Shown piece by piece: positions 1-50,145 of a stretch of 64,000 bases of DNA (the stretch's first letter is position 1; each line of letters starts with the position of its first letter). The notes under the pieces were generated by a model. The model made no database searches, was not told where the DNA came from, and saw only the letters and a list, made by a program, of their open reading frames with translations. A program made the translations under genes and the position numbers. The stretch covers positions 4,872,229 to 4,936,228 of the forward strand of contig CM049314.1 in the NCBI GenBank assembly GCA_026874595.1, in the 5' to 3' direction. This DNA is from Sipunculus nudus. Taxonomy: Eukaryota > Annelida > Sipuncula > Golfingiida > Sipunculidae.

Positions 1-1514
1 AGAAATGCCAGTACATTGCAGTTTTCAAACTTTCAACCACCTGTTCGTAGTCAGACTTCAGTATTACCATTGAACCAGCCTGCCCAGACCTTGAGTCAAC
101 CAAATACTATAGGCCCTTTTACCAATAGAAATCTGCCACAAATTCAACAAGTTAACATTTCAGAAGCAAACAGAACAAACCAAACATTGCATCTATCAAA
201 TACATTGGGATCTTCATCAAATGGAAATTTATCACATTCTAGTCAAACAGAGGTTTCAACCAGGAACAGATTTGATAATACAAGGCTGTACACTAACACT
301 ACAGAGCAAGTTACCAATACAAATGTGATACTGGGACAACCTATCCTTCCATCAGCCACAAACAGATCTAATTGTACAAGGACAGACTCAAACACCACAG
401 CGCCAGTAACAGATAGAAGTTGGACATTCAATAGACCACAGCACAATTCATCTTCACACAGGACAGACTTTAACACCACAATGCCACTAACAACTGGAGG
501 TTCGAGATTCATTAGACCACAGGCCAGTTCATCGTCAAACAGATCAGCTATCATGAGACCACATTCTGATACACAAGAACCAGAGTCGTGTGGAAATTCA
601 ACAAATATTGATTCAGTAAGTAGTTCAAGCACACTTGTTTTCACAGGACTGGGCCATGCAAGGGCAGACTGCAACAGATTATCAACTAAAGAAAGAGCAC
701 GTCAAAACAGAGCAAGACGAAATCGAGAACGTAGAAAAAGAAAACGTAGAGAACGTAGGGAAATGGAGTTGAATAGATTTGTCTCGAATCGTAACACTCA
801 GGCAGTGAATGAATCAACTGCTAACAGGTCTGTGCATTCAGGACGAGATTCTAATATAACAGTGTCAGTTTCTGATAGAGATGAAACAAACAACAGGAGA
901 GCTCATTGGTCAACCATAAACAGAACTGATCTCACGAGGTATAACTCTGATTCTGCTAGATCAGCATCAAGTATGGTTGGTTCACACAATCAGTCAGGCC
1001 AAGCATCAAGGAATTCAGCATTTTCAGCACCACTGTCATTTGGAGGTGTTACACATACTCAGCAATTCCAGAGTTCAACCATACATAGGTCTGATTACAC
1101 AAGGTCACACTCAAGTGGAGATGAGACACACAATCAACCATCTCAAAGTTTGACCAGAAATGGTCCTGATTTAACCACTACAGCACCATTGTCTACAAGA
1201 AATTTGACAGCTGCTCAGCCAGTCCACACATCAACCATAAATAGACCTGATCAAATACTACCTAACATCAGAACTTCATGGATTCAAAATGAAGTGCACA
1301 CTCGGCCATTTTGTGGTTCTTCCACAAACACACGTAGCCTGACAAGGCCTCCTTTTAACAGTATAGGGACAGGATGTAGTAGAAATGTGACACATACTCA
1401 GCCACCCCCATGGTCAAGTGTAAACAGAAATAATTATGGAGCACCAGCATCCAGATTTGGGACATACAATCCACCTACCCTGCAATATCCTAGAGACAGA
1501 TACAGATGGAACAG
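1..1514 (+). CDS. Gene A, internal exon (5' end outside window), Ser/Asn/Thr/Arg-rich protein
   Basis: Open in frame 1 from the first base to a donor AACAG|GTGAGT, about 504 codons; the frame would stop three bases after the donor, so splicing is expected. Composition is strongly biased to S, N, T and R with few hydrophobics, so it is probably disordered. About two-fifths of the way in lies a dense basic block (RERRKRKRRERR, near base 730-760) that looks like a nuclear localisation or nucleic-acid-binding patch. The second half holds loose repeats of the type STINR-D-TR and THTQP. The exon leaves two bases (AG) of a codon, which match the one base at the start of the exon at 7901. I do not recognise the family. 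No start codon is assigned because the exon continues upstream of the window. Confidence 0.72.
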
Positions 1515-7900: not shown

Positions 7901-8012
7901 AAACAACCAAAACAATGGAAGTTCAAATTCTCGCTATGTATGGACTCGAGAGGGTGCCAACAGACATTCTGATTGTTCAAACACAACGTCTGGCAGTAAC
8001 CGGGAGAACCAG
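7901..8012 (+). CDS. Gene A, second visible exon
   Basis: A 112-base exon with acceptor TATTCAG|A and donor CCAG|GTATGT. It begins with the last base of a split codon, completing AG|A (Arg) from the exon ending at 1514, then reads NNQNNGSSNSRYVW and on to SGSNRENQ, ending on a full codon (phase 0). The N, S and R bias continues that of the upstream exon, which supports the join. The next exon must start in phase 0, which fits both the acidic-motif exon at 19314 and the possible exon at 8178. Confidence 0.65.
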
Positions 8013-9195
8013 GTATGTATTGTGTAGCCAGGCAGCACATCAAACTACAGGCTGAGGCAAACATAGCTTTTAAATTTTTTTTTTTAAAAAGTAGAATATA
8101 TTTAATACAAAAATAATTGTGAGTTTTTTTTTTCTAGAGCACTTACTCGTTTTATTTCGCTCATTTACCTTTAGCAGGCCTTATCAGATTATGGGCTGAA
8201 GCTGCCCGTGACAAACACCACTCAGTTAGGGCTCCCTACAAGCCAAAATGAGGACCGCCCTGCAAGATCAGGCCACGCTTTATAACCGGTGATCTGTATA
8301 CATTCAGCAGGCAGACCTCAGGCAGAAATCTCCAATACATGCAGAACAATATACAATATATTTGGTTATTACGGAATATTTCACACACATGGTAGGTGTC
8401 ATTGGAGAAATAAGAAACTTCTTAAAAGGTCTAGTGGGTTTATTTTAAGTGACACGATACTTGTAAGCAATGAGGCATTGTAAAAAATGATGAAAATATT
8501 TGCATCCTCATGGGGCCTTATAATGCGATCCTCAAAGTTAGATGTCCAGGCACTCTGGCAGGCCAGTGATTTGGCCATAATGTCAGAGGGCCGATCTGGC
8601 ACTAGGGCTGAAGCAAACATACCTATTTTAACCGTTCTTAAAGAAGAATATGTTAAAAACAAAATGATGAGGAGGTCAAAACAAAATGATGAAAAACTTT
8701 TAGTAAGAAAGGGTACAAATATATGCCCTGCTAATGTGATTTCATTAATATTAATATATGTAATTAAACATCAACGTAGAATCTGGTTTGTGTAATGGCA
8801 GTCATTGTGAGAGCCAAGCTGGTCTGGCCAAGCTTTAGCTGTGATATTCATCTGAAATGATACATTCTGGTTCACATTGTTAGTTAAAAAAATACGCACT
8901 AGGTGGCTCTAACAGATAATTCACTCAGTATCAAGGAACTGCATCTGATGAGAGGCAGATACACAGTGACAACAGCGCCACCTGTTCATTACATAGCCCC
9001 CTTTAGCACCTGACCATATACAGTTATGATGCTTTATAACTTGCCATTAGCAGTGAACTATTTTACCACCCATCATGTGGCATTCTTCATGGTTAGATGG
9101 TTAAGGGAAAAACAGGATATAAGAGCTGAAACACATGCACAGTTTAAGTCTTAATAAGCAAGTTACAATTTATGTACAGGTTAAATGCTGTATTT
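8013..9195 (+). other. Intron stretch before the array
   Basis: Apart from the possible exon at 8178, the only thing recognised is a dispersed repeat at about 8476-8620 (ATATTTGCATCCTCATGGGG and downstream), which has a diverged copy at about 59966-60070. The rest is AT-rich sequence in which I see nothing. Confidence 0.5.
8178..8285 (+). CDS. Possible alternative terminal exon of gene A
   Basis: A good acceptor (pyrimidine-rich tract then TTTAGCAG|G) is followed by a phase-0 frame of 35 codons starting ALSDYGLKLPVTNTT and ending at TAA at 8283-8285. The phase matches the donor at 8012. No convincing donor precedes the stop, so if used it would end the protein before the acidic-motif exon. 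Base composition is richer in G+C than the flanks. Its content resembles the gene C exon at 58343 only faintly (short Leu, Thr and Ser-Gly positions). It could be a relic of an equivalent exon. Transcript evidence is needed. Confidence 0.3.
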   Translation, partial: ALSDYGLKLPVTNTTQLGLPTSQNEDRPARSGHAL

Positions 9196-12100
9196 CAGGA
9201 GATCTGATCAGTCAGATGATGACTGTAATGTATGTACATTGTAGGTTGATAATGTGTCACCTGAGACCTGCAGGAGGAGATCTGATCAGTCAGATGATGA
9301 CTGTAATGTATGTACATTGTAGGTTCATAATGTGTCACCTGAGACCTGCGGGAGGAGGTCTGACCATTCAGATGATGACTGTAATGTATGTACATTGTAG
9401 GTTGATAATGTGTCACCTTAGACCTGCAGGAGGAGGTCTGATCAGTCAGATGATGACTGTAATGTATGTACATTGTAGGTTGATAATGTGTCACCTTAGA
9501 CCTGCAGGAGGAGGTCTGATCAGTCAGATGATGACTGTAATGTATGTACATTGTAGGTTGATAATGTGTCACCTGAGACCTGCAGGAGGAGGTCTGATCA
9601 GTCAGATGATGACTGTAATGTATGTACATTGTAGGTTGATAATGTGTCACCTGAGACCTGCAGGAGGAGGTCTGATCAGTCAGATGATGACTGTAATGTA
9701 TGTACATTGTAGGTTGATAATGTGTCACCTGAGACCTGCAGGAGGAGATCTGATCAGTCAGATGATGACTGTAATGTATGTACATTGTAGGTTGATAATG
9801 TGTCACCTGAGACCTGCAGGAGGAGGTCTGATCAGTCAGATGATGACTGTAATGTATGTACATTGTAGGTTGATAATGTGTCACCTGAGACCCGCAGGAG
9901 GAGATCTGATCAGTCAGATGATGACTGTAATGTATGTACATTGTAGGTTGATAATGTGTCACCTGAGACCCACAGGAGGAGGTCTGATCAGTCAGATGAT
10001 GACTGTAATGTATGTACATTGTAGGTTGATAATGTGTCACCTGAGACCTGCAGGAGGAGGTCTGATAAGTCAGATTATGACTGTAATGTATGTACATTGT
10101 AGGTTGATAATGTGTCACCTGAGACCTGCAGGAGGAGATCTGATCAGTCAGATGATGACTGTAATGTGTGTACATTGTAGGTTGATAATGTGTCACCTGA
10201 GACCTGCAGGAGGAGGTCTGATCAGTCAGATGATGACTGTAATGTCTGTACATTGTAGGTTGATAATGTGTCACCTGAGACCCGCAGGAGGAGATCTGAT
10301 CAGTCAGATGATGACTGTAATGTATGTACATTGTAGGTTGATAATGTGTCACCTGAGACCCGCAGGAGGAGATCTGATCAGTCAGATGATGACTGTAATG
10401 TATGTACATTGTAGGTTGATAATGTGTCACCTGAGACCCGCAGGAGGAGATCTGATCAGTCAGATGATGACTGTAATGTATGTACATTGTAGGTTGATAA
10501 TGTGTCACCTGAGACCTGCAGGAGGAGGTCTGATCAGTCAGATGATGACTGTAATGTATGTACATTATAGGTTGATAATGTGTCACCTGAGACCTGCAGG
10601 AGGAGGTCTGATCAGTCAGATGATGACCGCATGTATGTACATTGTAGGTTGATAATGTGTCACCTGAGACCTGCAGGAGGAGGTCTGATCAGTCAGATGA
10701 TGACTGTAATGTATGTACATTGTAGGTTGATAATGTGTCACCTGAGACCTGCAGGAGGAGGTCTGATCAGTCAGATGATGACTGTAATGTATGTACATTG
10801 TAGGTTGATAATGTGTCACCTGAGACCTGCAGGATGAGATCTGATCAGTCAGATGATGACTGTAATGTATGTACATTGTAGGTTGATAATGTGTCACCTG
10901 AGACCTGCAGGATGAGATCTGATCAGCCAGATGATGACTGTAATGTATGTACATTGTAGGTTGATAATGTGTCACCTGAGACCTGCAGGAGGAGGTCTGA
11001 TCAGTCAGATGATGACTGTAATGTATGTACATTGTAGGTTGATAATGTGTCACCTGAGACCTGCAGGAGGAGGTCTGATCAGTCAGATGATGACTGTAAT
11101 GTATGTACATTGTAGGTTGATAATGTGTCACCTGAGACCTGCAGGAGGAGATCTGATCAGTCAGATGATGACTGTAATGTATGTACATTTTAGGTTGATA
11201 ATGTGTCACCTGAGACCTGCAGGAGGAGGTCTGATCAGTCAGATGATGACTGTAATGTATGTACATTGTAGGTTGATAATGTGTCACCTGAGACCTGCAG
11301 GAGGAGGTCTGATCAGTCAGATGATGACTGTAATGTATGTACATTGTAGGTTGATAATGTGTCACCTGAGACCTGCAGGAGGAGGTCTGATCAGTCAGAT
11401 GATGACTGTAATGTATGTACATTGTAGGTTGATAATGTGTCACCTGAGACCTGCAGGAAGAGATCTGATCAGTCAGATGATGACTGTAATGTATGTACAT
11501 TGTAGGTAGGTAATGTGCCACCTGAGACCTGCAGGATGAGATCTGATCAGTCAGATGATGACTGTAATGTATGTACATTGTAGGTTGATAATGTGCCACC
11601 TGAGACCTGCAGGAGGAGATCTGATCAGTCAGATGATGACTGTAATGTATGTACATTGTAGGTTGATAATGTGTCACCTGAGACCCCCAGGAGGAGGTCT
11701 GATCAGTCAGATGATGACTGTAATGTATGTACATTGTAGGTTGATAATGTGTCACCTGAGACCTGCAGGAGGAGGTCTGATCAGTCAGATGATGACTGTA
11801 ATGCATGTACATTGTAGGGTGATAATGTGTCACCTGAGACCTGCAGGAGGAGGTCTGATCAGTCAGATGATGACTGTAATGCATGTACATTGTAGGGTGA
11901 TAATGTGTCACCTGAGACCTGCAGGAGGAGGTCTGATCAGTCAGATGATGACTGTAATGTATGTACATTGTAGGTTGATAATGTGTCACCTGAGACCTGC
12001 AGCAGGAGGTCTGATCAGTCAGATGATGACTGTAATGTATGTACAATGTAGGGTGATAATGTGTCACCTGAGACCTGCAGGAGGAGGTCTGATCAGTCAG

Positions 12101-15100
12101 ATGATGACTGTAATGTATGTATATTGTAGGTTGATAATGTGTCACCTGAGACCCGCAGGGGGAGGTCTGATCAGTCAGATGATGACTGTAATGTATGTAC
12201 ATTGTAGGGTGATAATGTGTCACCTGAGACCTGCAGGGGGAGGTCTGATCAGTCAGATGATGACTGTAATGTATGTACATTGTAGGTTGATAATGTGTCA
12301 CCTGAGACCTGCAGGAGGAGGTCTGATCAGTCAGATGATGACTGTAATGTATGTACATTGTAGGTTGATAATGTGTCACCTGAGACCTGCAGGAGGAGGT
12401 CTGATCAGGTCAGATGATGACTGTAATGTATGTACATTGTAGGGTGATAATGTGTCACCTGAGACCTGCAGGAGGAGGTCTGATCAGTCAGATGATGACT
12501 GTAATGTATGTACATTGTAGTGTGATAATGTGTCACCTGAGACCTGCAGGAGGAGGTCTGATCAGTCAGATGATGACTGTAATGTATGTACATTGTAGGG
12601 TGATAATGTGTCACCTGAGACCTGCAGGAGGAGGTCTGATCAGTCAGATGATGACTGTAATGTATGTACATTATAGGTTGATAATGTGTCACCTGAGACC
12701 TGCAGGAGGAGGTCTGATCAGTCAGATGATGACTGTAATGTATGTACATTGTAGGTTGATAATGTGTCACCTGAGACCTGCAGGAGGAGATCTGATCAGG
12801 TCAGATGATGACTGTAATGTATGTACATTGTAGGGTGATAATGTGTCACCTGAGACCTGCAGGAGGAGGTCTGATCAGTCAGATGATGACTGTAATGTAT
12901 GTACATTGTAGGTTGATAATGTGTCACCTGAGACCTGCAGGAGGAGGTCTGATCAGTCAGATGATGACTGTAATGTATGTACATTGTAGGGTGATAATGT
13001 GTCACCTGAGACCTGCAGGAGGAGGTCTGATCAGTCAGATGATGACTGTAATGTATGTACAATGTAGGGTGATAATGTGTCACCTGAGACCTGCAGGAGG
13101 AGGTCTGATCAGTCAGATGATGACTGTAATGTATGTACATTGTAGGTTGATAATGTGTCACCTGAGACCTGCAGGGGGAGGTCTGATCAGTCAGATGATG
13201 ACTGTAATGTATGTACATTGTAGGTTGATAATGTGTCACCTGAGACCTGCAGGAGGAGGTCTGATCAGTCAGATGATGACTGTAATGTGTGTACATTGTA
13301 GGGTGATAATGTGTCACCTGAGACCTGCAGGAGGAGGTCTGATCAGTCAGATGATGACTGTAATGTATTTACATTGTAGGTTGATAATGTGTCACCTGAG
13401 ACCTGCAGGAGGAGATCTGATCAGTCAGATGATGACTGTAATGTATGTACAATGTAGGGTGATAATGTGTCACCTGAGACCCGCAGGAGGAGGTCTGATC
13501 AGTCAGATGATGACTGTAATGTATGAACATTGTAGGTTGATAATGTGTCACCTGAGACCCTCAGGAGGAGGTCTGATCAGTCAGATGATGACTGTAATGT
13601 ATTTACATTGTAGGGTGATAATGTGTCACCTGAGACCTGCAGGAGGAGGTCTGATCAGTCAGATGATGACTGTAATGTATGTACATTGTAGGTTGATAAT
13701 GTGTCACCTGAGACCTGCAGGAGGAGGTCTGATCAGTCAGATGATGACTGTAATGTATGTACAATGTAGGGTGATAATGTGTCACCTGAGACCCGCATGG
13801 GGAGGTCTGATCAGTCAGATAATGACTGTAATGTATGTACATTGTAGGGTGATAATGTGTCACCTGAGACCTGCAGGAGGAGGTCTGATCAGTCAGATGA
13901 TGACTGTAATGTGTGTACATTGTACGGTGATAATGTGTCACCTGAGACCTGCAGGAGGAGGTCTGATCAGTCAGATGATGACTGTAATGTATGTACATTG
14001 TAGGTTGATAATGTGTCACCTGAGACCCGCAGGAGGAGGTCTGATCAGTCAGATGATGACTGTAATGTATGTACATTGTAGGGTGATAATGTGTCACCTG
14101 AGACCCGCAGGAGGAGGTCTGATCAGTCAGATGATGACTGTAATGTATGTACATTGTAGGGTGATAATGTGTCACCTGAGACCCGCAGGAGGAGGTCTGA
14201 TCAGTCAGATGATGACTGTAATGTATGTACATTGTAGGGTGATAATGTGTCACCTGAGACCTGCAGGAGGAGGTCTGATCAGTCAAATGATGACTGTAAT
14301 GTATGTACATTGTAGGGTGATAATGTGTCACCTGAGACCTGCAGGAGGAGGTCTGATCAGTCAGATGATGACTGTAATGTATGTACATTGTAGGGTGATA
14401 ATGTGTCACCTGAGACCCGCAGGAGGAGATCTGATCAGTGAGATGATGACTGTAATGTATGTACATTGTAGGGTGATAATGTGTCACCTGAGACCTGCAG
14501 GAGGAGGTCTGATCAGTCAGATGATGACTGTAATGTATGTACATTGTAGGTTGATAATGTGTCACCTGAGACCCGCAGGAGGAGGTCTGATCAGTCAGAT
14601 GATGACTGTAATGTATGTACATTCTAGGTTGATAATGTGTCACCTGAGACCTGCAGGAGGAGATCTGATCAGTCAGATGATGACTGTAATGTATGTACAT
14701 TGTAGGTTGATAATGTGTCACCTGAGACCTGCAGGAGGAGATCTGATCAGTCAGATGATGACTGTAATGTATGTACATTGTAGGTTGATAATGTGTCACC
14801 TGAGACCCACAGGAGGAGGTCTGATCAGTCAGATGATGACTGTAATGTATGTACATTGTAGGTTGATAATGTGTCACCTGAGACCTGCAGGAGGAGGTCT
14901 GATCAGTCAGATGATGACTGTAATGTATGTACATTGTAGGTTGATAATGTGTCACCTGAGACCTGCAGGAGGAGGTCTGATCAGTCAGATGATGACTGTA
15001 ATGTATGTACATTGTAGGTTGATAATGTGTCACCTGAGACCTGCAGGAGGAGGTCTGATCAGTCAGATGATGACTGTAATGTATGTACATTGTAGGTTGA

Positions 15101-18100
15101 TAATGTGTCACCTGAGACCTGCAGGAGGAGGTCTGATCAGTCAGATGATGACTGTAATGTATTTACATTGTAGGTTGATAATGTGTCACCTGAGACCTGC
15201 AGGAGGAGGTCTGATCAGTCAGATGATGACTGTAATGTATTTACATTGTAGGTTGATAATGTGTCACCTGAGACCTGCAGGAGGAGGTCTTATCAGGTCA
15301 GATGATGACTGTAATGTATGTACATTGTAGGGTGATAATGTGTCACCTGAGACCTGCAGGAGGAGGTCTGATCAGGTCAGATGATGACTGTAATGTATGT
15401 ACATTGTAGGTTGATAATGTGTCACCTGAGACCTGCAGGAGGAGGTCTTATCAGGTCAGATGATGACTGTAATGTATGTACATTGTAGGGTGATAATGTG
15501 TCACCCGAGATCTGCAGGAGGAGGTCTGATCAGGTCAGATGATGACTGTAATGTATGTACATTGTAGGGTGATAATGTGTCACCTGAGACCTGCAGGAGG
15601 AGGTCTGATCAGTCAGATGATGACTGTAATGTATGTACATTGTAGGTTGATAATGTGTCACCTGAGACCTGCAGGAGGAGGTCTGATCAGTCAGATGATG
15701 ACTGTAATGTATGTACATTGTAGGTTGATAATGTGTCACCTGAGACCTGCAGGAGGAGGTCTGATCAGTCAGATGATGACTATAATGTATTTACATTGTA
15801 GGTTGATAATGTGTCACCTGAGACCTGCAGGAGGAGGTCTGATCAGGTCAGATGATGACTGTAATGTATGTACATTGTAGGGTGATAATGTGTCACCTGA
15901 GACCTGCAGGAGGAGGTCTGATCAGTCAGATGATGACTGTAATGTATGTACATTGTAGGTTGATAATGTGTCACCTGAGACCTGCAGGAGGAGGTCTGAT
16001 CAGTCAGATGATGACTATAATGTATTTACATTGTAGGGTGATAATGTGTCACCTGAGACCTGCAGGAGGAGGTCTGATCAGTCAGATGATGACTGTAATG
16101 TATGTACATTGTAGGTTGATAATGTGTCACCTGAGACCTGCAGGAGGAGGTCTGATCAGTCAGATGATGACTGTAATGTATGTACATTGTAGGGTGATAA
16201 TGTGTCACCTGAGACCTGCAGGAGGAGGTCTGATCAGTCAGATGATGACTGTAATGTATGTACATTGTAGGTTGATAATGTGTCACCTGAGACCTGCAGG
16301 GGGAGGTCTGATCAGTCAGATGATGACTGTAATGTATGTACATTGTAGGGTGATAATGTGTCACCTGAGACCTGCAGGAGGAGATCTGATCAGTCAGATG
16401 ATGACTGTAATGTATGTACATTGTAGGTTGATAATGTGTCACCTGAGACCCGCAGGGGGAGGTCTGATCAGTCAGATGATGACTGTAATGTATGTACATT
16501 GTAGGGTGATAATGTGTCACCTGAGACCTGCAGGAGGAGGTCTGATCAGTCAGATGATGACTGTAATGTATGTACATTGTAGGTTGATAATGTGTCACCT
16601 GAGACCTGCAGGAGGAGGTCTGATCAGTCAGATGATGACTGTAATGTATGTACATTGTAGGTTGATAATGTGTCACCTGAGACCTGCAGGAGGAGGTCTG
16701 ATCAGTCAGATGATGACTGTTATGTATGTACATTGTAGGTTGATAATGTGTCACCTGAGACCTGCAGGAGGAGGTCTGATCAGTCAGATGATGACTGTTA
16801 TGTATGTACATTGTAGGGTGATAATGTGTCACCTGAGACCCGCAGGAGGAGGTCTGATCAGTCAGATGATGACTGTAATGTATGTACATTGTAGGTTGAT
16901 AATGTGTCACCTGAGACCCGCAGGGGGAGGTCTGATCAGTCAGATGATGACTGTAATGTATGTACATTGTAGGTTGATAATGTGTCACCTGAGACCTGCA
17001 GGAGGAGGTCTGATCAGTCAGATGATGACTGTAATGTATGTACAATGTAGGTTGATAATGTGTCACCTGAGACCCGCAGGAGGAGGTCTGATCAGTCAGA
17101 TGATGACTGTAATGTATGTACATTGTAGGGTAATAATGTGTCACCTGAGACCTGCAGGAGGAGGTCTGATCAGTCAGATGATGACTGTAATGTATGTACA
17201 TTGTAGGTTGATAATGTGTCACCTGAGACCCGCAGGAGGAGATCTGATCAGTCAGATGATGACTGTAATGTATTTACATTGTAGGGTGATAATGTGTCAC
17301 CTGAGACCTGCAGGAGGAGGTCTGATCAGTCAGATGATGACTGTAATGTATGTACATTGTAGGGTGATAATGTGTCACCTGAGACCTGCAGGAGGAGGTC
17401 TGATCAGTCAGATGATGACTGTAATGTATGTACAATGTAGGGTGATAATGTGTCACCTGAGACCCGCAGGGGGAGGTCTGATCAGTCAGATGATGACTGT
17501 AATGTATGTACATTGTAGGTTGATAATGTGTCACCTGAGACCTGCAGGAGGAGGGCTGATCAGTCAGATGATGACTGTAATGTATGTACATTGTAGGTTG
17601 ATAATGTGTCACCTGAGACCCGCAGGGGGAGGTCTGATCAGTCAGATGATGACTGTAATGTATGTACATTGTAGGGTGATAATGTGTCACCTGAGACCTG
17701 CAGGAGGAGGTCTGATCAGTCAGATGATGACTGTAATGTGTGTACATTGTAGGGTGATAATGTGTCACCTGAGACCTGCAGGAGGAGGTCTGATCAGTCA
17801 GATGATGACTGTAATGTATTTACATTGTAGGTTGATAATGTGTCACCTGAGACCTGCAGGAGGAGGTCTGATCAGTCAGATGATGACTGTAATGTATGTA
17901 CATTGTAGGGTGATAATGTGTCACCTGAGACCCGCAGGATGAGGTCTGATCAGTCAGATGATGACTGTAATATGTGTACATTGTAGATTGATAATGTGTC
18001 ACCTGAGACCTGCAGGAGGAGGTCTGATCAGTCAGATGATGACTGTAATGTATGTACATTGTAGGGTAATAATGTGTCACCTGAGACCTGCAGGAGGAGG

Positions 18101-19374
18101 TCTGATCAGTCAGATGATGACTGTAATGTATGTACAATGTAGGTTGATAATGTGTCACCTGAGACCCGCAGGAGGAGGTCTGATCAGTCAGATGATGACT
18201 GTAATGTATGTACATTGTAGGGTGATAATGTGTCACCTGAGACCCGCAGGAGGAGGTCTGATCAGGTCAGATGATGACTGTAATGTATGTACATTGTAGG
18301 GTGATAATGTGTCACCTGAGACCTGCAGGAGGAGGTCTGATAAGTCAGATTATGACTGTAATGTATGTACATTGTAGGTTGATAATGTGTCACCTGAGAC
18401 CTGCAGGAGGAGGTCTGATCAGTCAGATGATGACTGTAATGTATGTACATTGTAGGTTGATAATGTGTCACCTGAGACCTGCAGGAGGAGGTCTGATCAG
18501 TCAGATGATGACTGTAATGTATGTACATTGCAGGTTCATAATGTGTCACCTGAGACCCGCAGGAGGAGGTCTGATCAGTCAGATGATGACTGTATTGTAT
18601 GTACATTGTAGGTTCATAATGTGTCACCTGAGACCCGCAGGAGGAGGTCTGATCAGTCAGATGATGACTGTAATGTATGTACATTGCAGGTTCATAATGT
18701 GTCACCTGAGACCCGCAGGAGGAGGTCTGATCAGTCAGATGATGACAGTAATGTATGTACATTGTAGGTTGATAATGTGTCACCTGAGACCTGCAGGAGG
18801 AGGTCTGATAAGTCAGATGATGACTGTAATGTATGTACATTGTAGGTTGATAATGTGTCACCTGAGACCTGCAGGGGGAGGTCTGATCAGTCAGATGATG
18901 ACTGTAATGTATGTACATTGCAGGTTGATAATGTGTCACCTGAGACCTGCAGGGGGAGGTCTGATCAGTCAGATGATGACTGTAATGTATGTACATTGCA
19001 GGTTGATAATGTGTCACCTGAGACCTGCAGGAGGAGATCTGATCAGTCAGATGATGACTGTAATGTGTGTACATTGTAGGTTGATAATGTGTCACCTGAG
19101 ACCTGCAGGGGGAGGTCTGATCAGTCAGATGATGACTGTAATGTGTGTACATTGTAGGTTGATAATGTGTCACCTGAGACCTGCAGGGGGAGGTCTGATC
19201 AGTCAGATGATGACTGTAATGTATGTACATTGTAGGTTGATAATGTGTCACCTGAGACCCGCAGGAGGAGGTCTGATCAGTCAGATGATGACTGTAATGT
19301 GTGTACATTGTAGGTTGATAATGTGTCACCTGAGACCTGCAGGGGGAGGTCTGATCAGTCAGATGATGACTGTA
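9196..19374 (+). repeat. Tandem array of about 130 units of 78 bp derived from the 3' splice site and head of a gene A exon
   Basis: Unit, from the splice point: GTTGATAATGTGTCACCTGA, then GACCTGCAGGAGGAGGTCTG, then ATCAGTCAGATGATGACTGT, then AATGTATGTACATTGTAG. The length of 10,179 bases divided by 78 gives about 130.5. The last unit passes without interruption into the exon at 19314-19464 and loses similarity just after GATGACTGTA, where the exon reads TCATACTG and array units read ATGTATG. So a unit is about 61 bases of exon head plus about 17 bases of intron end. At the left border the similarity begins inside a unit, after TATTTCAG; bases 9172-9195 look like a decayed unit. In the exon frame each unit reads VDNVSPETCRRRSDQSDDDC-NVCTL-stop, and that TAG is the would-be acceptor. 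Variants: GTTGAT or GGTGAT, AGATCT or AGGTCT, CTGCAG or CCGCAG, and eight 79-bp units with CAGGTCAGATG. Each unit also has a small inverted repeat, CAGTCA-gatga-TGACTG. Confidence 0.97.
18529..19020 (+). repeat. Array units nearest the exon carrying CAG instead of TAG at the splice-like point
   Basis: At least four unit borders here read ATTGCAG|GTT (near 18530, 18686, 18918 and 18996) where most units read ATTGTAG. This removes the in-frame stop, so about three consecutive units between about 18850 and 19079 are open in the authentic exon frame. CAG is also the preferred 3' splice site trinucleotide in animals. Units at about 18530-18700 also share GGTTCATAATG. Confidence 0.8.
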
Positions 19375-19464
19375 TCATACTGTCTCCTGAGCCTCCAAGC
19401 AAGAAATCTTTCAGATTGAAGGAGGCATCAGATGGTTACCACAGACACAGAACAAGTGATGCAG
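19314..19464 (+). CDS. Gene A, acidic-motif exon
   Basis: A 151-base exon: acceptor ATTGTAG|GTT, donor GCAG|GTAAAG. It starts on a full codon, matching the donor at 8012, and leaves one base (G), matching the terminal exon at 29544. It encodes VDNVSPETCRGRSDQ, SDDDCIILSPEPPSKK, then a basic tail with HRHRTSDAG. The stretch SDDDCIIL (acidic run before C-I-I-L) is aligned with SDDDCVIL in gene B and ADDDCIIT in gene C and resembles a SUMO-interacting motif. Its first 61 bases are the unit of the upstream array. The alternative acceptor CTGCAG|G at 19342 would be out of phase with the upstream exon. Confidence 0.72.
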
Positions 19465-21839: not shown

Positions 21840-23720
21840 ACAAGACAGGTGGTGCCACTTACATTGACTTTTGCAGTGTATGTGCCTGCTTATGTCTACA
21901 GAGGAATTTGATACATCAGCCTAAAATTGGGCATGTTTATACATATCGGGTAGCTTTATAGTGCACAAGACTGGTGGCGCCACCTACAATAATTTTTGCA
22001 CAGTGTATGTCCCTGCTTATTTCACAGGAGGGGTTTGACATATCAGACTGACATTAGGCTTATTTATATATCTCTTTGTTGTATATAAGACTGGTGGTGC
22101 CAGCTACAATCATTGTATCCGCCAAAACTGAGATTTGGGGATACTAGTAAGTTTTCAGTCGGACGACGATGCTGCCACCTTCACCGCATAGGTTTCCAGA
22201 GAACTCCTTCATAACCACTGGGCAGAATTTTTCAAAATTCAGAATTATGATCGGTCACATGTGAACTGCTGCGCCCTCATTTTTGGGTGACCTCTGACCT
22301 TTCCTCTCTGCCCAGCGTCCATTCGTGTGTCTGCTTCCACACATAAACCCACATATCTCGGGAACGGTTTGACCGATAAGGCTAAAGATTTTGCACAAAT
22401 GTAGCCCTTCGAAAGCTTTATAACATACACTAAAAATGGTGGTGCCACCTGCAACCATTTTTGCACAGCGTCCATCTGTTCATCTGCCTTGGGATAAAAA
22501 TGCTCATATCTCTGCATTGGTTGGACTTATCCATCTGAAATTTTGCATGTGTATACATCCTGGACAGCTTTCTTGATTTTATGACAGGTGGCGCCACCTA
22601 CATTCACATTTAAGCTGCAGATATCCAAGCTCATATCTCGGGAACTGTTTGACCAGTTTGGTCAAAATTTGCATGTGTATAGATCTCCCATAGGACTTTA
22701 TCATATGCAAAACTGGTGGTGCCACCTGCAACCATTTTTGCACAGCGTTCATCTGTTCATCTGCCTTGGGATAAAATCACTCATATCTCGGCAGTGGTTT
22801 TACTTATCCACCTGATATTTTGCAGGTTTATACATCCTTGACAGTTTTCTTGATTTTATGACAGGTGGCACCACCTACATTCAAAATTACGCAGCAGAAA
22901 TCCAAGCGCATATCTCAGGAACCATTTGACCGATTGGGCAAAAATTTTGCATGTTTATAGATCTCACATAGGTCTTTCTCATACACAAAAGCAGTGGTGC
23001 CACCTGCAATCATTTTTGCACAGCGTCCTTCTTTTTGTTTGCCATGGGATAAAATCACTCATATCTCGGCAGTAGTTTGAGATATCTGCCTAAAATTTTT
23101 CAGGTTTATACGTCTTGGATAGCTTTCTGGATTTTGTGGCAGGTGGCGCCACCTACATTTATGTACACGCTGCAGACGTTCAGGCTTATATCTCGGGACT
23201 GGTTTGACATATCCCCCTGAAATTTTGCATGTGTATAGATCTCACATAGCTCTTAATCATACACAAAATTGGTGGTGCCACCTGCCACCATTTTTGCACA
23301 GCTTCTGTCTGTTTGTCTGCTGTTGGCTAAAATCATTCATATCTCAGTAGTGGTGTGACTTATCTGCCTAAAATTTTGCAGGTTTATACATCTTCGATAG
23401 CTTTCTGGATTTTGTGGCAGGTGGTGCCACCTATATTTATGTATACGCTGCACACATTCAGGCTTATATATCAGGACTGGTTTGACATATCCCCCTGAAA
23501 TTTTGCATGTGTATAGATCTCACATATCTCTTAATCATACACAAAATTGGTGGCGCCACCTGCCACCATTTTTGCACAGTGTCTGTCTGTTTGTCTGCTG
23601 TGGGCTAAAATCACTCATATCTCAGTAGTGGTTTGACTTATCTGCCTAAAATTATGCATGTTTATACAGCTTGGACAGCTTTCTGGATTTTGTGGTAGGT
23701 GGCGCAACCTACATACACAT
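21840..23720 (+). repeat. Dimeric tandem repeat, period about 278 bp, with two GGTGGCGCCACC palindromes per unit
   Basis: Palindromes or their variants lie at 22587, 22715, 22864, 22993, 23142, 23271 and on, with spacing alternating close to 128-129 and 149 bases. The two half-units differ: one reads CATTTTTGCACAGCGTCC then CTCATATCTCGG, the other TACATTCACATTTAAGCTGC. A related head, TTGTATCCGCCAAAACTGAG, at 22115 links this block to the copy at 63549. Confidence 0.8.
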
Positions 23721-24079
23721 TTTAGCTGCAAACATACAGGCTATTATGCAACACACCTCACTCTATTTCCCCTTGTCACTCAATCCATGCCTCACTTCAC
23801 CTTTCCCACTCTGATTTTGGAGGATACACATAGTCACTTGTTGACTACCCATATTCTGCACCCATGCCAGAATTGCAGCAGTGATGTTCATTTAATTGTT
23901 TCTTGTTTTAAGTGTTTAGTACTTGCATTGTTCATATACATGTTACACATGTTCTTGAAAAGTAATGGTCCAGCATTGAAGCATTATACCTGGTGTAATC
24001 TCATTGCACAGGTTCGCATTAGGCCTGTAGGCCTTGTTTCTATATTTTTACAATTTTTTTTCTTTATTTTTGGGACTTT

Positions 24080-26770
24080 GAAAGGTGCAGTCATCTGTTA
24101 ACAAGGCACAAATTGTAACAACTGGACCTAGAATCTTCTGTCTTGACATGCAGGGAGGCCCATGAAAAGTCTCTTTGGAAGCCTGAAATAATGTCTCTGT
24201 TACCCATATCCTCTCAGCTATGGGGCTCCGAATTACCCTCTAGAATAATGGAAAATTTGATGCAAAAGCTCAAGTATCTGCACAACTATTGCATTGATCA
24301 CAATAAATTTTTGCATAGATATAGATCATTGAATATTTCATCAGTTTCTGCAGACTGGTGGCGCCACCTGTATTTTTTTTTCCAACTTTTACAAATTTTT
24401 TTCTCCTTTTTTTCAGACCTGCAATGAAACTGTCATCTGTTAATAGGGCACAAATCTTAACCGCTTGACCTGGAAGGTCCATGATTAATCTTCTTGGAAA
24501 CCAGAAATCAGGTCTCTGTTACCAATATTCTTTGAGCTATGGGGCTGTGAAGTACCCCCCCCCCCCCCGTATAATTAAAATTTTGATACAAAAGCTCAAG
24601 TATCTGAATAACTACTGCATTGATCACCATGATTATGTGCATGAACATTGATCATGGGGTGTTCTATCACCTCCTGCAGACTGGTGGTGCCACCTGTAAT
24701 TTTCCATTTTTTATGATTTTTTTTTTGGTTTCTTGTTTTTTAGCTCAGCTGACTTTCAGTCATGCTGAGCTATAGCAATCACTCTTTGTCCGTTGTCCGT
24801 CTGTCTGTTAACCTGGCACAAATCGTAACCTCTGGACTTAGAATCTTGTTTCTTGAGATTCTGAGAGGTAGATAAAAAATCTCCTTGGAAACCAGAAATT
24901 AGGTCTCTGTTACCCATATCCTTCGAGCTATTGGGCCCCAAAGTACCCCCCAGAAAAGTCAAAAATTTCATACAAAAACTTCAATATCTCGTTAACTACA
25001 TCACTGATGGTCATGATTTTTGGCAAACATATTGATCATGATATGTTCCATCAGTTCCTGCAGACTGGTGGCGCCACCTATATTTTTCGATTTTTTACAA
25101 ATTTTTTTCTCTATTTTTGAGACCTTTTAAAATGTGAACATCTGTTAACAGGGCAAAAATTGTTAAGACTGGACCTAGAATCTTCATTCTTGACACAGTG
25201 AGAGACCTAAAGAAAGTACATGGAAACCAGAAATTAGGTCTCTGTTACCCAAATCCTTCGAGCTATGAGGCCCCAAAGTACCTCCCAGAATAGTCAAAAA
25301 TTTCATACAAAAACTTCAAGATCTCATTAATTACATCACTGATGGTCATGATTTTTGGCATAATTATTGATCATGAGATGTTTCATCAGTTTCTGCAGAC
25401 TGGTGGCGCCACCTGTATTTTTCGATTTTTAAGAATTGTTTTCACTATTTTTAGACCTTTAAAAATGTGAACATCTGTTAACAGGGCACAAATCGTAAAG
25501 ACTGGACCTAGAATCTTCATTCTTGACACATAGGGAGACCCATGAAAAGTCTCCATGGAAACCTGAATTTAGGTCTCTGTTACCCATATCCTTTGAGCTG
25601 TTGGGCTCCCAATTACCCCCCAGAATAATGGTAATTTGATAAAAAAAAAACTGCAACATCTCAATAACTACAACACTGATGGTCATGATTTTTGGCATAC
25701 ATATTGATCAAGAGGTGTTTCATCAGTTCCTGCAGACTGGGGGCGCCACCTGTATTTTTTTTCAAATTTTTACAATTTTTTTTCTCTATTTATGAGACCT
25801 TTAAGGATGTAGTTATCTGTCAACAGGGTACAAATTGTAAGGACTGGACCTAGAATCTTCATTCTTGACACACAGGGAGACCCATGAAAAGTCTCCATGG
25901 AACCCTGAAATTAGGTCTCTGTTACCCATATCCTTTGAGCTATGGCACTCCAAAGTACAGCTTGGAATAATGAAAAATTTGATACAAAAGCTGAAGTATC
26001 TGAACAACTAAAGCAGAGATCACCATAATTATTTGCATGGATATTGATCACGGAATGTTTCATCAGTTTCTGCAGACTGGTTTTTTTTAACGAATTTTTT
26101 TCTCTATTTTTGCGACCTTTAAAGATATGAACATCTGTTAACAGGGCACAAATGGTAACGACTGGACCTAGAATCTTCATTCTTGACACACAGAGAGACC
26201 CATGAAAAGTCCCCATGAAAAACTGAAATAAGGTCTCTGTTACCCATATCCTTTAAGCTGTATGGCTCCCAAATACCCCTAAGAATAATGAAAAATTTGA
26301 TACAAAAACTGCACTATCTCAGTAACTACAACACTGATGGTCATGATTTTTGCCATACATATTGATCATGAGATGTTCCATTAGTTTCTGCAGACTGGGT
26401 GCGCCACCTCCATTTTTTCAAATTTTTACGAATTTTTTCTCTTTTTTTGAGACCTTTTAAAGATGTGGTTATCTGTCAACAGGGTACAAATTGTAACAAC
26501 TGGACCTAGAATCTTCATTCTTGTCATGCAAGGAGGCCCATGAAAAGTGTCTGTGGAAACCTGAAATTAGGTCTCTGTTACCCATATCCTTCAAGCTATA
26601 GGACTCCGAAGTATCCCTAAGAATAATGAACAATTTGATACAAAAGCTGAAGTATCTGAACAACTTATGCAGAGATCACCATGATTCTTTGCATGCATAT
26701 TGACCATTAAGTCTTTTTATTAGTTTCTGCAGACTGGTGGAGCCACCTGCATTTTTTCTGTATTTTTGAG
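24080..26770 (+). repeat. Tandem repeat of about 335 bp with one GGTGGCGCCACC-type palindrome per unit
   Basis: About eight units, each reading GACCTTTAAAGATGTGAACA, GGACCTAGAATCTTC, GGTCTCTGTTACCCATATCC, CAGTATCTGAATAACTA-like text, then TTTCTGCAGACTGGTGGCGC and CACC. The unit near 26078 has lost the palindrome and jumps from CAGACTGG to a T run. Further units of the family are at about 2280-2560, 3940-4340, 19600-19860, 32530-33505, 34140-34520 and, in reverse, 46640-48060. An AGCTCAGCTGAC-type head at 24742 and tail at about 26890-26919 enclose most of the block. Confidence 0.8.
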
Positions 26771-29543: not shown

Positions 29544-29644
29544 ATGTGATGATTGTTGAAGATATCCGCCCCCCTGAAGACTTGGTGAGGAAAGCACGTG
29601 CACTAGGGCTTCCAGATACGTTTTACAATTATCTCAAGAATTAG
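29544..29644 (+). CDS. Gene A, terminal exon
   Basis: Acceptor TTTATTTACAG|AT with a pyrimidine-rich lead. It completes G|AT (Asp) from the donor at 19464 and reads DVMIVEDIRPPEDLVRK, ARALGLPDTFYNYLKN, then TAG at 29642-29644. The core matches the terminal exons of gene B and gene C, with the same entering phase. VMIVED is a hydrophobic patch followed by acidic residues, a second candidate SUMO-interacting motif. The visible part of gene A spliced this way is 625 residues. A possible weak polyadenylation signal ATTAAA is at 30029. Confidence 0.82.
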
Positions 29645-32529: not shown

Positions 32530-33505
32530 TTATGAGACCAAAGATGTTGTCATCTATTAACAGGGCTCAAAACTTAACCATTGTACCTAGAAACTTCTTT
32601 CTTTACATTCAGGGAGGTCCATGAAAATTTACTTTGGAAACCTGAAACCATGTCTCGGTTACCCATATCCTCCCAGCTATGGGGCTTTGAAGTACTCCCC
32701 AGAACAATTAAAATTTGATACAAAAGCTCCAGTGTCTGAACAACTAGTGCATTGATCACCATGGTTCTTTGCATGCATATTGATCATGGAGTGTTTCATC
32801 AGTTCCTGCAGGCTGATGGCGCCACCTGTTTTTTCTTCAATTTTTTTCACATTTTTTTTTTTCTTTGAGACCTTCTAAGATGGAATCGTCCGTTAACAGG
32901 GCAAAAATCTTAAAAGTTTGACGTAGAATCTTCTAACTGTACATCCAGGGAGGTCCATGAAGAATCTCCTTGGAAACCTGAAATAAGATCACTTTTGCCC
33001 ATATCCTCTGAGCAATGGGAACTGAAGTAACAGAACAGAAATAATTAAAAATTTGATTCAAAAGCTCCAGTATCTGAACCACTTATGCACTGATCAACAT
33101 GATTCTTTGTATGCAGTTTGCTCATGGAGTGTTCCATCAGTTCTTGCAGACTAGTGGCGCAACCTGGACTTTTTCCCAAATGTTTACACAATTTTTTGTC
33201 TATTTTTAAGACCTTTAGAGGTGTGGTTGTCTGTTAACAGGGCACAAATCATAACCATTGGACCTAGGATCTTCTAACTTGACATCCAGGGAGGTCCAAG
33301 TAAAATCTTCATGGAAACCTGAAATTAGGTCTCTGTTAGTCATATCCTTTGAGCTTTAGGGCTTTTAAGTACCCTAAGTATAATTTAAAAATTTATACAA
33401 AACCTCAAGTTTCTGAACAGTTAATGCATTCATCACCATGATTCTTTGCATGCACATTCATCATGGAGTGTTTCATCAGTTCCTGCAGACTGGTGGTGCA
33501 ACCCG
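32530..33505 (+). repeat. Three further units of the approximately 335-bp palindrome repeat
   Basis: Palindrome-like sites near 32812 (GATGGCGCCACC), 33154 (TAGTGGCGCAACC) and 33490 (GGTGGTGCAACC), each after GCAGACT or GCAGGCT, spaced about 340 bases. The lead text (ACCTAGAATCTTCTAACTTG, TCTGTTACCCATATCCT types) is as in the block at 24080. Confidence 0.7.
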
Positions 33506-33512
33506 CATTTTT

Positions 33513-41479: not shown

Positions 41480-42220
41480 TTCAAGTGCGCTCGTACAATA
41501 TGCAGTCTCTACACCTCCTACATTTTCACTTCAGCAGCTCTGGGCAGGATGCACTGGCTTCCGGTAAGTTTGTCCACAGAGGCCTCCACTGTTCTGGGCT
41601 GTTCCATTCCCCACTCTGTCTCAGAAGGGGAGGGCAACAGGCGATATGGCATTGTAGTACGTCCCCAATAGTGTCCTGATGTGTTGTTGTACGACAGCCT
41701 TAGTGGGAGGATTCTGACATCTGACGCCTTTTTTCCTGTGAATAGAAGCTTTCTGGCTCCGTTGATGGACGTACATGTTGCTGTCCTGTCGTAGAGCAGG
41801 GCGGAAAAAGTACTCTATAGGGAAGCCTCAATCTCATCAGATATTTGATTTTTTTTGCACCGTGCAGCTCGTAGAAGGCTGCGTTGAGTTCATCCTGTGT
41901 CTCCCACACTTTCCAGATATTCTTCTGTCCAACTTGGGAAAACTGGGACACAGTGTCGCACCCCGTGAAAGCATGGAACACCGGAAGTGCCAAGGATTTT
42001 TGTGGGGAAAGGGAGGCACTTATCTCTGAGCTGGGACGTGGTGAAAGTTCTTGCCGCTTCCGAATGCAATCCAGAGGTCTCTCGACCTTCCCAGCTGCTG
42101 CACAGTCGCTAATTCTAGCACAACTACATCGGTATCTACTGTCCGAACAAGCAGGGCGTGGATAGCGGGGGGATGCATACCCCCCAGAATTTTAGGTGAG
42201 GGGATGGTGTGTACAATCAT
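41480..42220 (-). pseudogene. Broken gene of a transposon-associated protein family (HAFTGCDTVS motif)
   Basis: Read from 42220 down to 41480. The first part has VDTDVVVLELATVQQL and LWIAFGSGKNFHHVPAQ. After a frame change the next part has ALPVFHAFTGCDTVSQF, then WKVWETQDELNAAFYEL. Past an in-frame stop it reads EWNSPEQWRPLWTNLPEAS, then SCPELLK, a stop, and CRRCRDC. These motifs in this order (D-T-D-VVV-LA, HAFTGCDT, W-PLWT-LPEAS, Cys-rich end) are ones I recall from a multicopy, nuclease-like family common in cnidarian and mollusc genomes; I cannot give a formal name. At least one frameshift and two stops show it is not functional. The gene's start is missing. Confidence 0.7.
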
Positions 42221-45203: not shown

Positions 45204-45305
45204 ATGGCACGACGACCGAAGAAACGAAAACAGCGACGTCCGGTCCTGTTAACGAAACCAGATCCTGCTGACAGTAAAAATGAAACCAAGGAGAACGAGG
45301 ATAAG
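45204..45305 (+). CDS. Gene B, first exon
   Basis: ATG in the context ACAATGG, 34 codons, then a strong donor AAG|GTAAGG. Encodes a very basic N-terminus, MARRPKKRKQRRPVLLTKPD, followed by an acidic/polar end NETKENEDK. The basic block is a likely nuclear localisation signal and parallels the basic block in gene A. It ends on a full codon, matching the phase-0 start of the exon at 49590. Start chosen because it is the first ATG after the TATA-like site and gives the in-phase join. Confidence 0.75.
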
Positions 45306-48300
45306 GTAAGGCAAACTGATGTCCTATTAGATACTTAAGGTGGAAAATCGCTGACCTTGTTAAGCATTTCATAGTGCCTTGTCTGTGTGACCAAAGTGAA
45401 GTAAGAACTAAATAACTCAAGCCCCCCCCCCCCCTTTTTGAACACAGAGTATCGGTCTCTATTTAGAGACGGAGAGCGCATTTGCATTTTAGTGGTGCCC
45501 TGTATGATATTATTAAATATCCCTCACTTAGCCATATAACCAAACGTAAATTGTCTAGCTGACAGACCCTTAACTAAGACGCCTTATTTGTTTATTGCTC
45601 AAATAAGAAAGTGAAACATATTATCCAGGTGCAAAGTAGGGAGGCGATGCTAGCAGGTTTCTAACAAGATATGACATGTTGCTTCAGGATCAAGAACACA
45701 GGGGGCATCCAGTTTTCAAATTCCTTCTTCTGATTGGCTCTTGGGTTTCAGGCTCATTCATCACCGAAATCAAAGCATAAGATTTACTGCCTGGTCTCTA
45801 AAATAGTGCCATCTAGTGACTAAAACAGAAATATAATGGCTCCAAGCGGAGCTGGTAGCTACTTGTACATTTTCTTGTTTTAATCATTTTGAAATGGTTC
45901 TCACACGCAGGTAAAAACCCAGGTTTGTTTCTTCAAAGCTTATTTTATAATTTATTTGAAAATCTGTGTCCTCGCTCGCCCCTAGTGTTTTTATAGAGTG
46001 CACGTCACTGGAAGGCTATCCTTTCTGAGCAGCCCCATCTTTCTTGCCTCCGCTAGGACGGTATGCGTTCATTCCTTTTCGTGTGTCTGGGACTGTGTAT
46101 TTGTTCTCAACTCACGCAACCATGAACTGATTCTCATGAAATTATCTGGGCATTTCGGGAACGGGCCAATGAAGAATCCACTGGATTTTGGTGTAGATCC
46201 GGTTTATGATCCTGATACATAAACGTCATCAAAGAATAGTCACAAATCCACACTCACTTATGCCTATTAACTTTGGAATATTGGCCGAATATGTAATTGG
46301 CGGGGGCTTGTTTTCATTAAAATGCAGATTTCTATTTGTTTCTAGGTGTTTAAATTAATATTTACGGACTGAAACACTCCCCTTCTGGACCAGAGGACCC
46401 ATTGCAGGTTTCTATTTGAGTCTTCCTGGAGGGGACCTTCCCCTTTAAAAAGTGGCCCATGGGCAATGACGCTCAGTTGAATTCAAGGAGCCTTGAACAA
46501 TGAGTGAAATGACTCCGAGAAAGCTCAAAATCATGCAGTTTACGAAAAGACCTTAGGTATAGGTTACAGTGACCTTGTTCCACATCAAACTGCTACCATT
46601 TGTGCTAAACTGACAGTGTTAAAATCATGTTCTTTCACACAGCTTGCAGAATATTGGTCAAAGTGAAATTATTTAAGGTTTCGAGAATGACAAGAATAAA
46701 GATTCTAGGTCCATTTGTTACGATTTGTACCCTGTTGACAGATAACCATATCTTTAAAGGTCTCAAAAATAGAGAAAAAAAATTGTAAAATTTTTTAAAA
46801 AATTTTAGGTGGCACACCCAGTCTGCAGAAACTGATGGAACACCTCATGATCAATATGTATGCCAAAAATCATGACCATCAGTGTTGTAGTAATTGAGAT
46901 ACTGCAAATTCTGGGAGTATTTTGGAGCCATACAGCTTAAAGGATATGGGTAACAGAGACCTAATTTCAGGTTTTCATGGAGACTTTTCATGGGTCTCAC
47001 TGTGTGTCAAGAATGAAGATTCTGGGTCCTGTTGTTACGATTTGTACCCTGTTAACAGATGTTCATATCTTTAAAGGTCTCAAAAATAGAGAAAAAATCG
47101 TTAAAAACGAACAAATACAGGTGGCGACACCAGTCTGCAGAAACTGATGAAACATCTCATGATCAATATATATGCCAAAAATCATGACCATCCGTGATGC
47201 AGTTTATGAGATATTGAAGTTTTTGTATGATTTTTTTTTACTTTTCTGGGGAGTATTTTGGGGCCCCATAGCTCCAAGGATATTGGTAAAAGAGACCTAA
47301 TTTCTGGTTTCCATGGAAACTTTTCATAGGTCTCTCAGTATGTCAAGAAAGAAGATTCTAGGTCCAGTCGTTACGATTTGTACCCTGTTGACAGATAACT
47401 TCATCCTTAAAGGCCTTAAAAATAGAGAAAAAAAATGGTAAAAATTTGAAAGAATTCAGGTGGCGCCACCAGTCTGCAGGAACTGATGGAACACCTCTTG
47501 ATCAATATGTATGCCAAAATCATGACCATCAGTATTGTAGTTATTGAAATATTGCAGTTTTTCATCAAATTTTCCATTATTCTGGGGGGTAATTGGGAAC
47601 CCCACAGCTCTAACGATATAGGTAACAGAGACGTTATTTCAGGCTTCCATAGAGACTTTTCAAAGGTCTATCACTGTGTCAAGAATGAAGATTCTAGGTC
47701 CGGTCTTTACGATTTTTGCCCTGTTAACAGATGTTCACATTTTTAAAGGTATCAAAAATAGAGAAAACAATTCGTAAACAATTGAAAAATACAGATGGCG
47801 CCACCAGTCTGCAGAAACTGATGAAACATCTCATGATCAATATGTATGCCATAAATTATGACCATCATGCAGTGATGTAGTAAATAAGATATTGAAGTTT
47901 TTGTATGAAATTTTTTACTATTCTTTGGGTATTTTTGGGCCCCATAGCTCAAAGGATATGGGTAACGGAGACCTAATTTCTGGTTTCCAAGGAGATTTTG
48001 TCATGGACCTCTCAGAATGTCAAATTACAAGATTCTAGGTCCAGCGGTTACGATTTGTGCCTGGTTAACGGACAGACGGACGGCACGACGGGCGACCGAC
48101 AGAGATCTATAGCTCAGATGACTTACAATCGGCTGAGCTAAAAAATCCTGGATACTCCCCTGGGACAATAGCCACAGTCCTGATCTCTCTCGCAACATTA
48201 CCCCGTGACAGAAGGATGGGGATACCGCCACGCCACTAAGTTACAGATCTTTCAAATGAGTGTTTGGAAGAAATAGAGGGTTTTAGCAGGGGAAGCCGTC

Positions 48301-49589: not shown

Positions 49590-49722
49590 GAGAACCGTAA
49601 GAGGAGACCGAGTTACTCTGACGACGACTGTGTGATCCTGAGTTATGAGCCGCCACGTAAGAGAGCTTGTCATAAACCAGGTGGTCCCTCCGAATCCTCC
49701 AAGCCCAATTTAGACGGCTCAG
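49590..49722 (+). CDS. Gene B, acidic-motif exon
   Basis: 133 bases, acceptor GAAAACAG|GAG, donor TCAG|GTGAGA. Phase 0 in, phase 1 out, as in genes A and C. Encodes ENRKRRPSYSDDDCVILSYE, then PPRKRACHKPGG and a Ser-rich end. SDDDCVIL is an acidic stretch followed by a hydrophobic core, a good match to a SUMO-interacting motif. RR-SYSDDDC aligns with RRSDQSDDDC of the gene A array unit. Confidence 0.85.

Positions 49723-50068: not shown

Positions 50069-50070
<2 letters not shown>

Positions 50071-50140: not shown

Positions 50141-50145
<5 letters not shown>

Follow-up and report, generated by a model that had tools for sequence, protein, structure and literature searches.

A 64,000-nucleotide stretch of the genome of Sipunculus nudus (GenBank assembly GCA_026874595.1, contig CM049314.1, positions 4,872,229 to 4,936,228 of the forward strand; hereafter the window) contains, inside an intron of a predicted gene that we call gene A, a tandem array of about 130 near-identical 78-bp copies of what appears to be that gene's own intron-exon boundary, the last of which continues into the exon. 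Tandem copies of intron-exon boundaries have been described in lancelet genes under the name of mirages (PMC3087553). We consider it likely that the array is a very large minisatellite of this mirage type, a tolerated by-product that would be removed together with its intron, and that splicing mostly uses the last acceptor. Coordinates are given in window numbering, and exons are numbered within the window.

Anatomy of the 78-bp Array

Tandem Repeats Finder placed the array at 9197 to 19374 on the forward strand, with a period of 78 bp, 130.4 copies and 96% matches. Segmentation at the cut point GTTGATAATG yielded 129 full units between 9245 and 19313 (120 of 78 bp, eight of 79 bp, and one of 77 bp), flanked on the left by a partial unit and on the right by the exon copy, which starts at 19314. 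One unit joins 17 intron bases to the initial 61 of gene A exon 3: the consensus of the intron portion, ATGTATGTACATTGTAG, matches the intron end before 19314, and the last copy tracks the unit for 61 bases and then passes into unique sequence (...GACTGTATCATACTGTCTCC) up to the donor after 19464. The host intron would extend from 8013 to 19313 on the forward strand (11,301 nt, about 90% of it array); its junction, and with it the host-gene boundary contained in the unit, is predicted from phase and homology. The initial annotation had read the array as about 130 tandem copies of an intron-exon junction ending at the exon, and this description was borne out.

The distribution of the unit in the genome was determined with a 36-nt pattern, allowing up to 3 mismatches. 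In the 1,426,538,692-base assembly, 121 matches were obtained on a single strand and none on the other; the window holds 121, and all places among the matches listed in the genome search fall within it. Since the two counts are equal, the array is not a dispersed satellite. A genome-wide satellite unrelated to the exon, one of two cases that the initial annotation had named as refuting its proposal, was accordingly rejected. The same pattern gave an average of 0 matches in 100 shuffles, which excludes a chance origin of the repeat. The single locus and its end at an apparently real exon agree with the earlier proposal that the satellite arose from a 3' splice site within a gene.

At the left edge of the array there is an acceptor-like sequence, ATGCTGTATTTCAG|GAGATCTG (9185 to 9199, forward strand), which is in the wrong phase for the donor at 8012 and meets a stop after two codons. 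The left flank could not be recognized as an old diverged unit or ancestral acceptor, as 105 of 1000 shuffles aligned as high; in the comparison with the unit in register, scores as high were reached by between 235 and 354 of 1000 shuffles, and by between 201 and 269 of 1000 control stretches. A search for a higher-order repeat in the array gave no clear lag, and a scan for G-quadruplex motifs found none.

Gene A and the Evidence for Exon 3

Gene A was mapped from its large exon onward, exons further 5' falling outside the mapping. The 3' part of the large exon occupies positions 1 to 1514 (forward strand) as an open frame rich in S, T and N, with a K/R-rich stretch, and ends at the donor CAG|GTGAGT. 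The whole exon, taken to start at L004:8634 after the acceptor tttatttcag|GAAAAAATGC, is 2881 nt long and open over 959 codons in one frame without any stop, the longest frame in 200 mononucleotide shuffles being 170 codons. Exon 2 (7901 to 8012, forward strand) precedes the array and ends at the donor CAG|GTATGT in phase 0, confirming the phase given in the initial annotation. Exon 3 (19314 to 19464, forward strand; VDNVSPETCRGRSDQSDDDCIILSPEPPSKK...; donor CAG|GTAAAG) consists of the last repeat copy (61 nt) followed by unique sequence. It is open from 19314, and its phase-1 end is what the last exon at 29544 to 29644 (forward strand) requires. This last exon reads DVMIVEDIRPPEDLVRKARALGLPDTFYNYLKN*, is weakly like the IR1 motif of RanBP2, and is intact, with 74% identity to its counterpart in gene B and 67% to that in gene C, two paralogues located downstream in the window.

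Exon 3 was also matched by exon 2 of gene B (26 aa, 54%, E 3.7e-6 in a window-only search), and the two exons have equal phases on both sides. Of the matching residues, 14 fall within the repeated segment; the other 12 belong to the unique segment, and seven of these are identical. Phase, the match to this paralogue and the conservation of the last exon support the view that exon 3 is real. On the grounds of the exon 3 phases, the paralogue match, the intact last exon and the 959-codon open frame, gene A is very probably a working coding gene. Its predicted protein is long and S/T/N-rich with basic stretches, followed by SDDDCIILSPEPP, which we take to resemble a SUMO-interacting motif (SIM), and then by DVMIVEDIRPPEDLVRKARALGLPDTFYNYLKN. 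A 625-aa query of gene A identified no Pfam family, and Rfam (gathering-level) and tRNA scans gave no matches.

Variation Among Units and Apparent Exchange With the Exon Copy

The 117 units of 78 bp showed a mean identity of 98.1% to the consensus. The mean pairwise difference between units was 2.7 in 78, neighbouring units being slightly closer (2.4). The units are thus homogenised within the cluster, as in mirages, and the 68 distinct sequences found among 128 segments follow one another in irregular order. In the exonic part of the same 117 units, differences at codon positions 1, 2 and 3 numbered 63, 49 and 20, and the distinct coding changes comprised four synonymous, 28 non-synonymous and two stops, where 37, 135 and 8, respectively, were possible. 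There is no sign of coding constraint on the units. Changes in the donor GT and acceptor AG were not significantly rarer than expected over 128 units (4 seen, 9.8 expected; P 0.48, that is, 48% of random position sets had 4 changes or fewer), and the splice sites in the units show no sign of being either kept or removed.

Six of the 129 units match the exon copy exactly over 60 nt, four of them among the last seven units and two among the other 122 (Fisher P 4.6e-5, for a cut at seven that was picked after viewing the list). The satellite and the first 20 codons of exon 3 thus seem to exchange sequence.

The eight 79-bp units share one additional base (CAGGTCAG) and are located at 12364, 12755, 15252-15567, 15802 and 18221. 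Four of them are consecutive, which would fit one change propagating along the array.

Splice Signals in the Units and Their Possible Consequences

Splice sites were scored with crude, generic literature weights and not with those of a dedicated tool. On this scale the unit acceptor TAG|GTT scored 4.2, the last acceptor at 19314 4.4, and CTGCAG|GAG 4.8 but out of phase. The donor-like site of the unit, AAT|GTATGT, scored 5.9 bits and the presumed donor of exon 3 7.6; for the six sites presumed to be gene donors within the window, scores ranged from 6.0 to 12.5. Between 20000 and 29000, acceptors as strong as the last one were found at 84 of 503 AGs, and donors as strong as that of the unit, less common than such acceptors, at 10 of 463 GTs. 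Of the 117 units of 78 bp, 116 contain TAG or CAG, and GTATGT is intact in 109 of 129; splice signals are therefore repeated in the units, a further feature of mirages.

The initial annotation had suggested that the array could act as a bank of decoy acceptors that lowers or regulates gene A output. On this view, upstream unit acceptors would capture some of the splicing and lead to early stops and degraded transcripts, gene A output being lowered or tuned with array copy number. When a unit acceptor was combined with read-through of the array, all 129 upstream acceptors led to a stop at or before 19313, and 111 of them after exactly 25 codons, the distance originally proposed for every unit, although the other 18 stopped after 6 to 88 codons. 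Along with the nearly universal TAG or CAG, this agrees with a decoy role, as does the higher score of 14 of the 129 unit acceptors relative to the real one. The argument from the 25-codon stop breaks down, however, once the unit's own donor is taken into account. Moreover, the distribution of differences over codon positions lends the proposal no support, constraint on the AG and GT positions was not detected, and lancelet mirages are reported not to disturb splicing (PMC3087553; PMC3902484). The decoy function, which was proposed from sequence data only, is possible, and we judge it unlikely.

With the unit's own donor, 113 of the 129 units form 63-nt stop-free cassettes that have AG before and GT after and keep phase 0, and 96 of the 129 are in frame, stop-free and provided with the whole GTATGT. 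The other 16 units fail on frame (nine), a stop (three), the donor (three) or the acceptor (one). This donor-like site and the in-frame cassette layout are new relative to the initial annotation. An equally good in-frame stop-free donor occurred in 2.9% of 20,000 random junction units, each built from 61 coding bases and 17 intron bases. Units might then be used as 63-nt exons (TAG|GTT acceptor, AAT|GTATGT donor) to produce proteins with varying counts of a 21-residue acidic, arginine-rich module upstream of the SIM-like motif. If this were true, one gene would give rise to a graded protein family differing in module number, each unit would supply an acceptor, a purine-rich body and a donor, the protein set would shift as the satellite grew or shrank, and the first 20 codons of exon 3 would be rewritten by satellite exchange. 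We find such a bank of exons quite unlikely, both in its splicing and in its protein products. The cassette property is a post hoc observation and is offered as a lead, the splice weights are crude, the unit donor has no G at -1, and the coding differences described above look unconstrained. In addition, neighbouring units cannot both be exons, since only 15 nt separate the donor of one unit from the acceptor of the next.

A disabling effect of the array on gene A, with poor splicing through the region and decay of the allele or the gene, would fit the many competing sites that approach the real exon in strength and in some cases exceed it; the open frame of the large exon and the intact last exon, 67-74% identical to its paralogues, speak against it and make it very unlikely. 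An assembly artefact, in which the true copy number would be much smaller or the array misplaced, could be suspected because a single assembly underlies the result, but it is highly improbable given the number and irregular order of distinct unit sequences and the unique flanks, which are continuous with the gene on both sides.

To the left of the array, a second acceptor-like sequence, caatttatgtacag|GTTAAA (9166 to 9180, forward strand), is in phase 0 for the donor at 8012. The acceptor-like points at 9180 and 9199 each scored 5.4, the latter out of phase. The former opens a different frame of 490 codons that runs through the first units to 10652 and encodes 26-residue repeats (...MMTVMYVHCRLIMCHLRPAGGGLISQ...), until it is ended by the single 77-bp unit. 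This second frame is probably incidental, the unit length being a multiple of three.

Probable Origin of the Array and Presumed Choice of the Last Acceptor

The mirage-type minisatellite that we favour would have arisen by tandem duplication of a 78-bp stretch that covers the 3' end of a gene A intron together with the beginning of the following exon. Unequal exchange or slippage, proposed here to account for the anatomy seen in the sequence, would then have brought it to about 130 copies, the first 61 bases of the exon being one of them. The array would be transcribed and removed with the 11.3-kb intron, with 19314 mostly serving as acceptor, and most likely it has no selected role. The 14 bases before 19314 recur exactly ahead of six other units, and close matches precede the remaining ones. 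Upstream sequence (branch point or tract) is thus unlikely to mark this site, and the selecting information must lie downstream, in the unique exon body and the donor. What is unique to the last site is indeed the 90 unique exon bases that follow it and the donor 151 nt downstream. Exon definition is well established in animals, and recognition across the exon, by which the unique exon body and the donor after 19464 would favour the last acceptor, is the simplest account for the choice of the last site.

Several lines of evidence point to this origin: the anatomy of the array and its single locus, the phases of exon 3 and its match to gene B, the presence in genes B and C of a homologous exon without an array, and a neighbourhood rich in arrays. 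The failure to detect codon or splice-site constraint, the apparent exchange between the exon copy and its neighbours, and the lancelet precedent are also consistent with it. Other observations weigh against it. The 14 stronger unit acceptors score 4.5 to 6.5, compared with 4.4 for the last one, and since the last acceptor is not the strongest and the unit donor comes near the exon 3 donor in score, a leak of splicing into the array is plausible. The predicted RNA fold gave the last acceptor no special accessibility in the 12 units examined, and the distance of units to the exon copy showed no trend along the whole array (Spearman -0.07, P 0.46). Furthermore, both the 8012-19314 junction and the preference for the last acceptor are predictions from sequence, and the copy number comes from one assembly. 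Two other folding results were not used as evidence: tiled units fold modestly better than tiled shuffles (10, 5 and 2 of 120 as low for one, two and three copies, respectively), and one of 150 tiled intron 78-mers folded as low as two unit copies.

Acceptor choice among equal sites is usually studied with a few engineered copies. Here, about 130 near-identical acceptors with a near-identical intron side precede, in a natural gene, one that differs on its exon side, a situation that could help to tell apart choice of the nearest site, scanning, and recognition across the exon. The locus also suggests that concerted change can tie the beginning of a coding exon to a satellite, and that mirages, described in lancelets, may occur at large size elsewhere.

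Comparison With Known Boundary Repeats

The initial annotation knew of no described example of such an array, which turned out to be wrong. Lancelet mirages, for example in the globin genes BflGb6 and BflGb9 and in Adh3, likewise repeat an intron-exon boundary with its splice signals, and the globin report cites retinol dehydrogenase and presenilin papers for similar loci (PMC3087553). The BflGb6 unit joins the 3' end of an intron to the 5' part of exon 2, measures 150-160 bp, and is present as six and three units in two haplotypes with 81-100% identity, while Adh3 mirage units measure 10-72 bp; the Adh3 data and globin RT-PCR (reverse transcription polymerase chain reaction) suggested that regular splicing is undisturbed despite AG and GT in many units (PMC3087553). 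The gene A array differs in having about 130 units of 78 bp with a mean identity of 98%, a size comparison that rests on BflGb6, Adh3 mirage copy numbers being outside it. It also differs in that most of its units are in-frame cassettes and in that splicing is predicted here, whereas it was followed by RT-PCR in lancelets. In another report, lancelet PGBD5 is described with tandem repeats of 60 and 108 bp over splice sites, and mirages of Adh and troponin C are also named (PMC3902484); the 108-bp repeat is a triplication of imperfect copies, in another gene and another animal.

Two further systems are less closely similar. Human internal tandem repeats at exon-intron boundaries alter splicing and may create new introns, and they consist on average of four 30-bp units, about 160 bp in all, in recently duplicated primate genes (PMC2812944). 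Intron gain in a potato RNA-dependent RNA polymerase gene (RdRp) likewise ties tandem duplication to the origin of an intron, but there it is reportedly one tandem duplication and not an array as in gene A (PMC4974935). A literature search by titles and abstract openings, partial in coverage, found no boundary array of near 130 units. Mirages outside lancelets were sought only by one exact phrase, and none was found; given this narrow search and its partial coverage, they may well be in print.

Paralogues of Gene A and the IR1-Like Motif

Gene A is the first of four adjacent paralogues that share the C-terminal IR1-like exon. A genome query with this exon gave seven matches, all on C9, four of them in a row: genes A, B and C and a fourth at 4942550 (L006 6322-6426). 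Gene A, gene B (which spans 45204-52809) and gene C (61029-61914) also have in common an acidic exon of the DDDC type. All features of these two genes lie on the forward strand. In gene B, exon 1 (45204 to 45305; MARRPKKRKQRRP...) has a phase-0 end, exon 2 (49590 to 49722), the homologue of gene A exon 3, has a single acceptor, aaaacag|GAGAACCGTAAG, and no array, and the last exon (52655 to 52809) carries the IR1-like motif. Gene C has an exon at 61029 to 61200 (TNRLEENSNASSTAADDDCIITHYE...), also without an array and with an uncertain exact acceptor, and the IR1-like exon at 61816 to 61914 (EVVIVQEILPSEDLIRKARDLALPDSFYNYLK). A genome query with the trimmed SIM exon found only genes B and A; since gene C was missed, this query was not sensitive. 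A protein search with gene B found no relative.

The last exon of gene A was compared with the Pfam family PF12185, which describes the RanBP2 IR1-type SUMO E3 motif. It gave E values of 0.068 to 0.088 (13.2-13.5 bits, under the curated 25-bit cut-off), and the best match among genes A, B and C (E 0.0088) was also below the curated cut-off, so that the relationship to this motif is one of resemblance only. PF12185 was absent from the results obtained with longer gene A queries, of 625 and 85 residues. In a PDB search, RanBP2 appeared at E 0.19 for gene A and was not listed for gene B, and with a joint profile of the three members it ranked third, behind two unrelated chains. A role of gene A in the SUMO pathway may be taken as a lead only.

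The other three IR1-like matches lie at 76.8 to 78.5 Mb of C9. At these loci (L032, L033 and L034, at 76.8 and 78.5 Mb), three IR1-like exons are followed by CPGCIGC..., and they are perhaps RanBP2-like genes.

Genomic Neighbourhood

In 344,000 contiguous bases around the locus, 32 tandem arrays with a period of at least 20 and a score of at least 150 account for 48,466 bases; among those longer than 1 kb, the match percentage is highest for the 78-bp array. Large satellites occur upstream of the large exon of gene A, at G000:C9:4836997-4859771 (L005, L008 and L009). There, an 87-bp unit in 176 copies fills 15,070 bases that end about 11 kb before the large exon, 4,232 bases consist of a 77-bp unit, and a 3-kb block has a unit that reads as the reverse complement of the 87-bp unit. 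Within the window, a 163-codon open frame on the reverse strand (41700-42191) resembles a fragment of a mobile-element protein. Short arrays with units of about 278 and 335-341 bp are located at 22424-26756, 32553-33512 and 46908-48069, and they probably derive from a dispersed repeat family.

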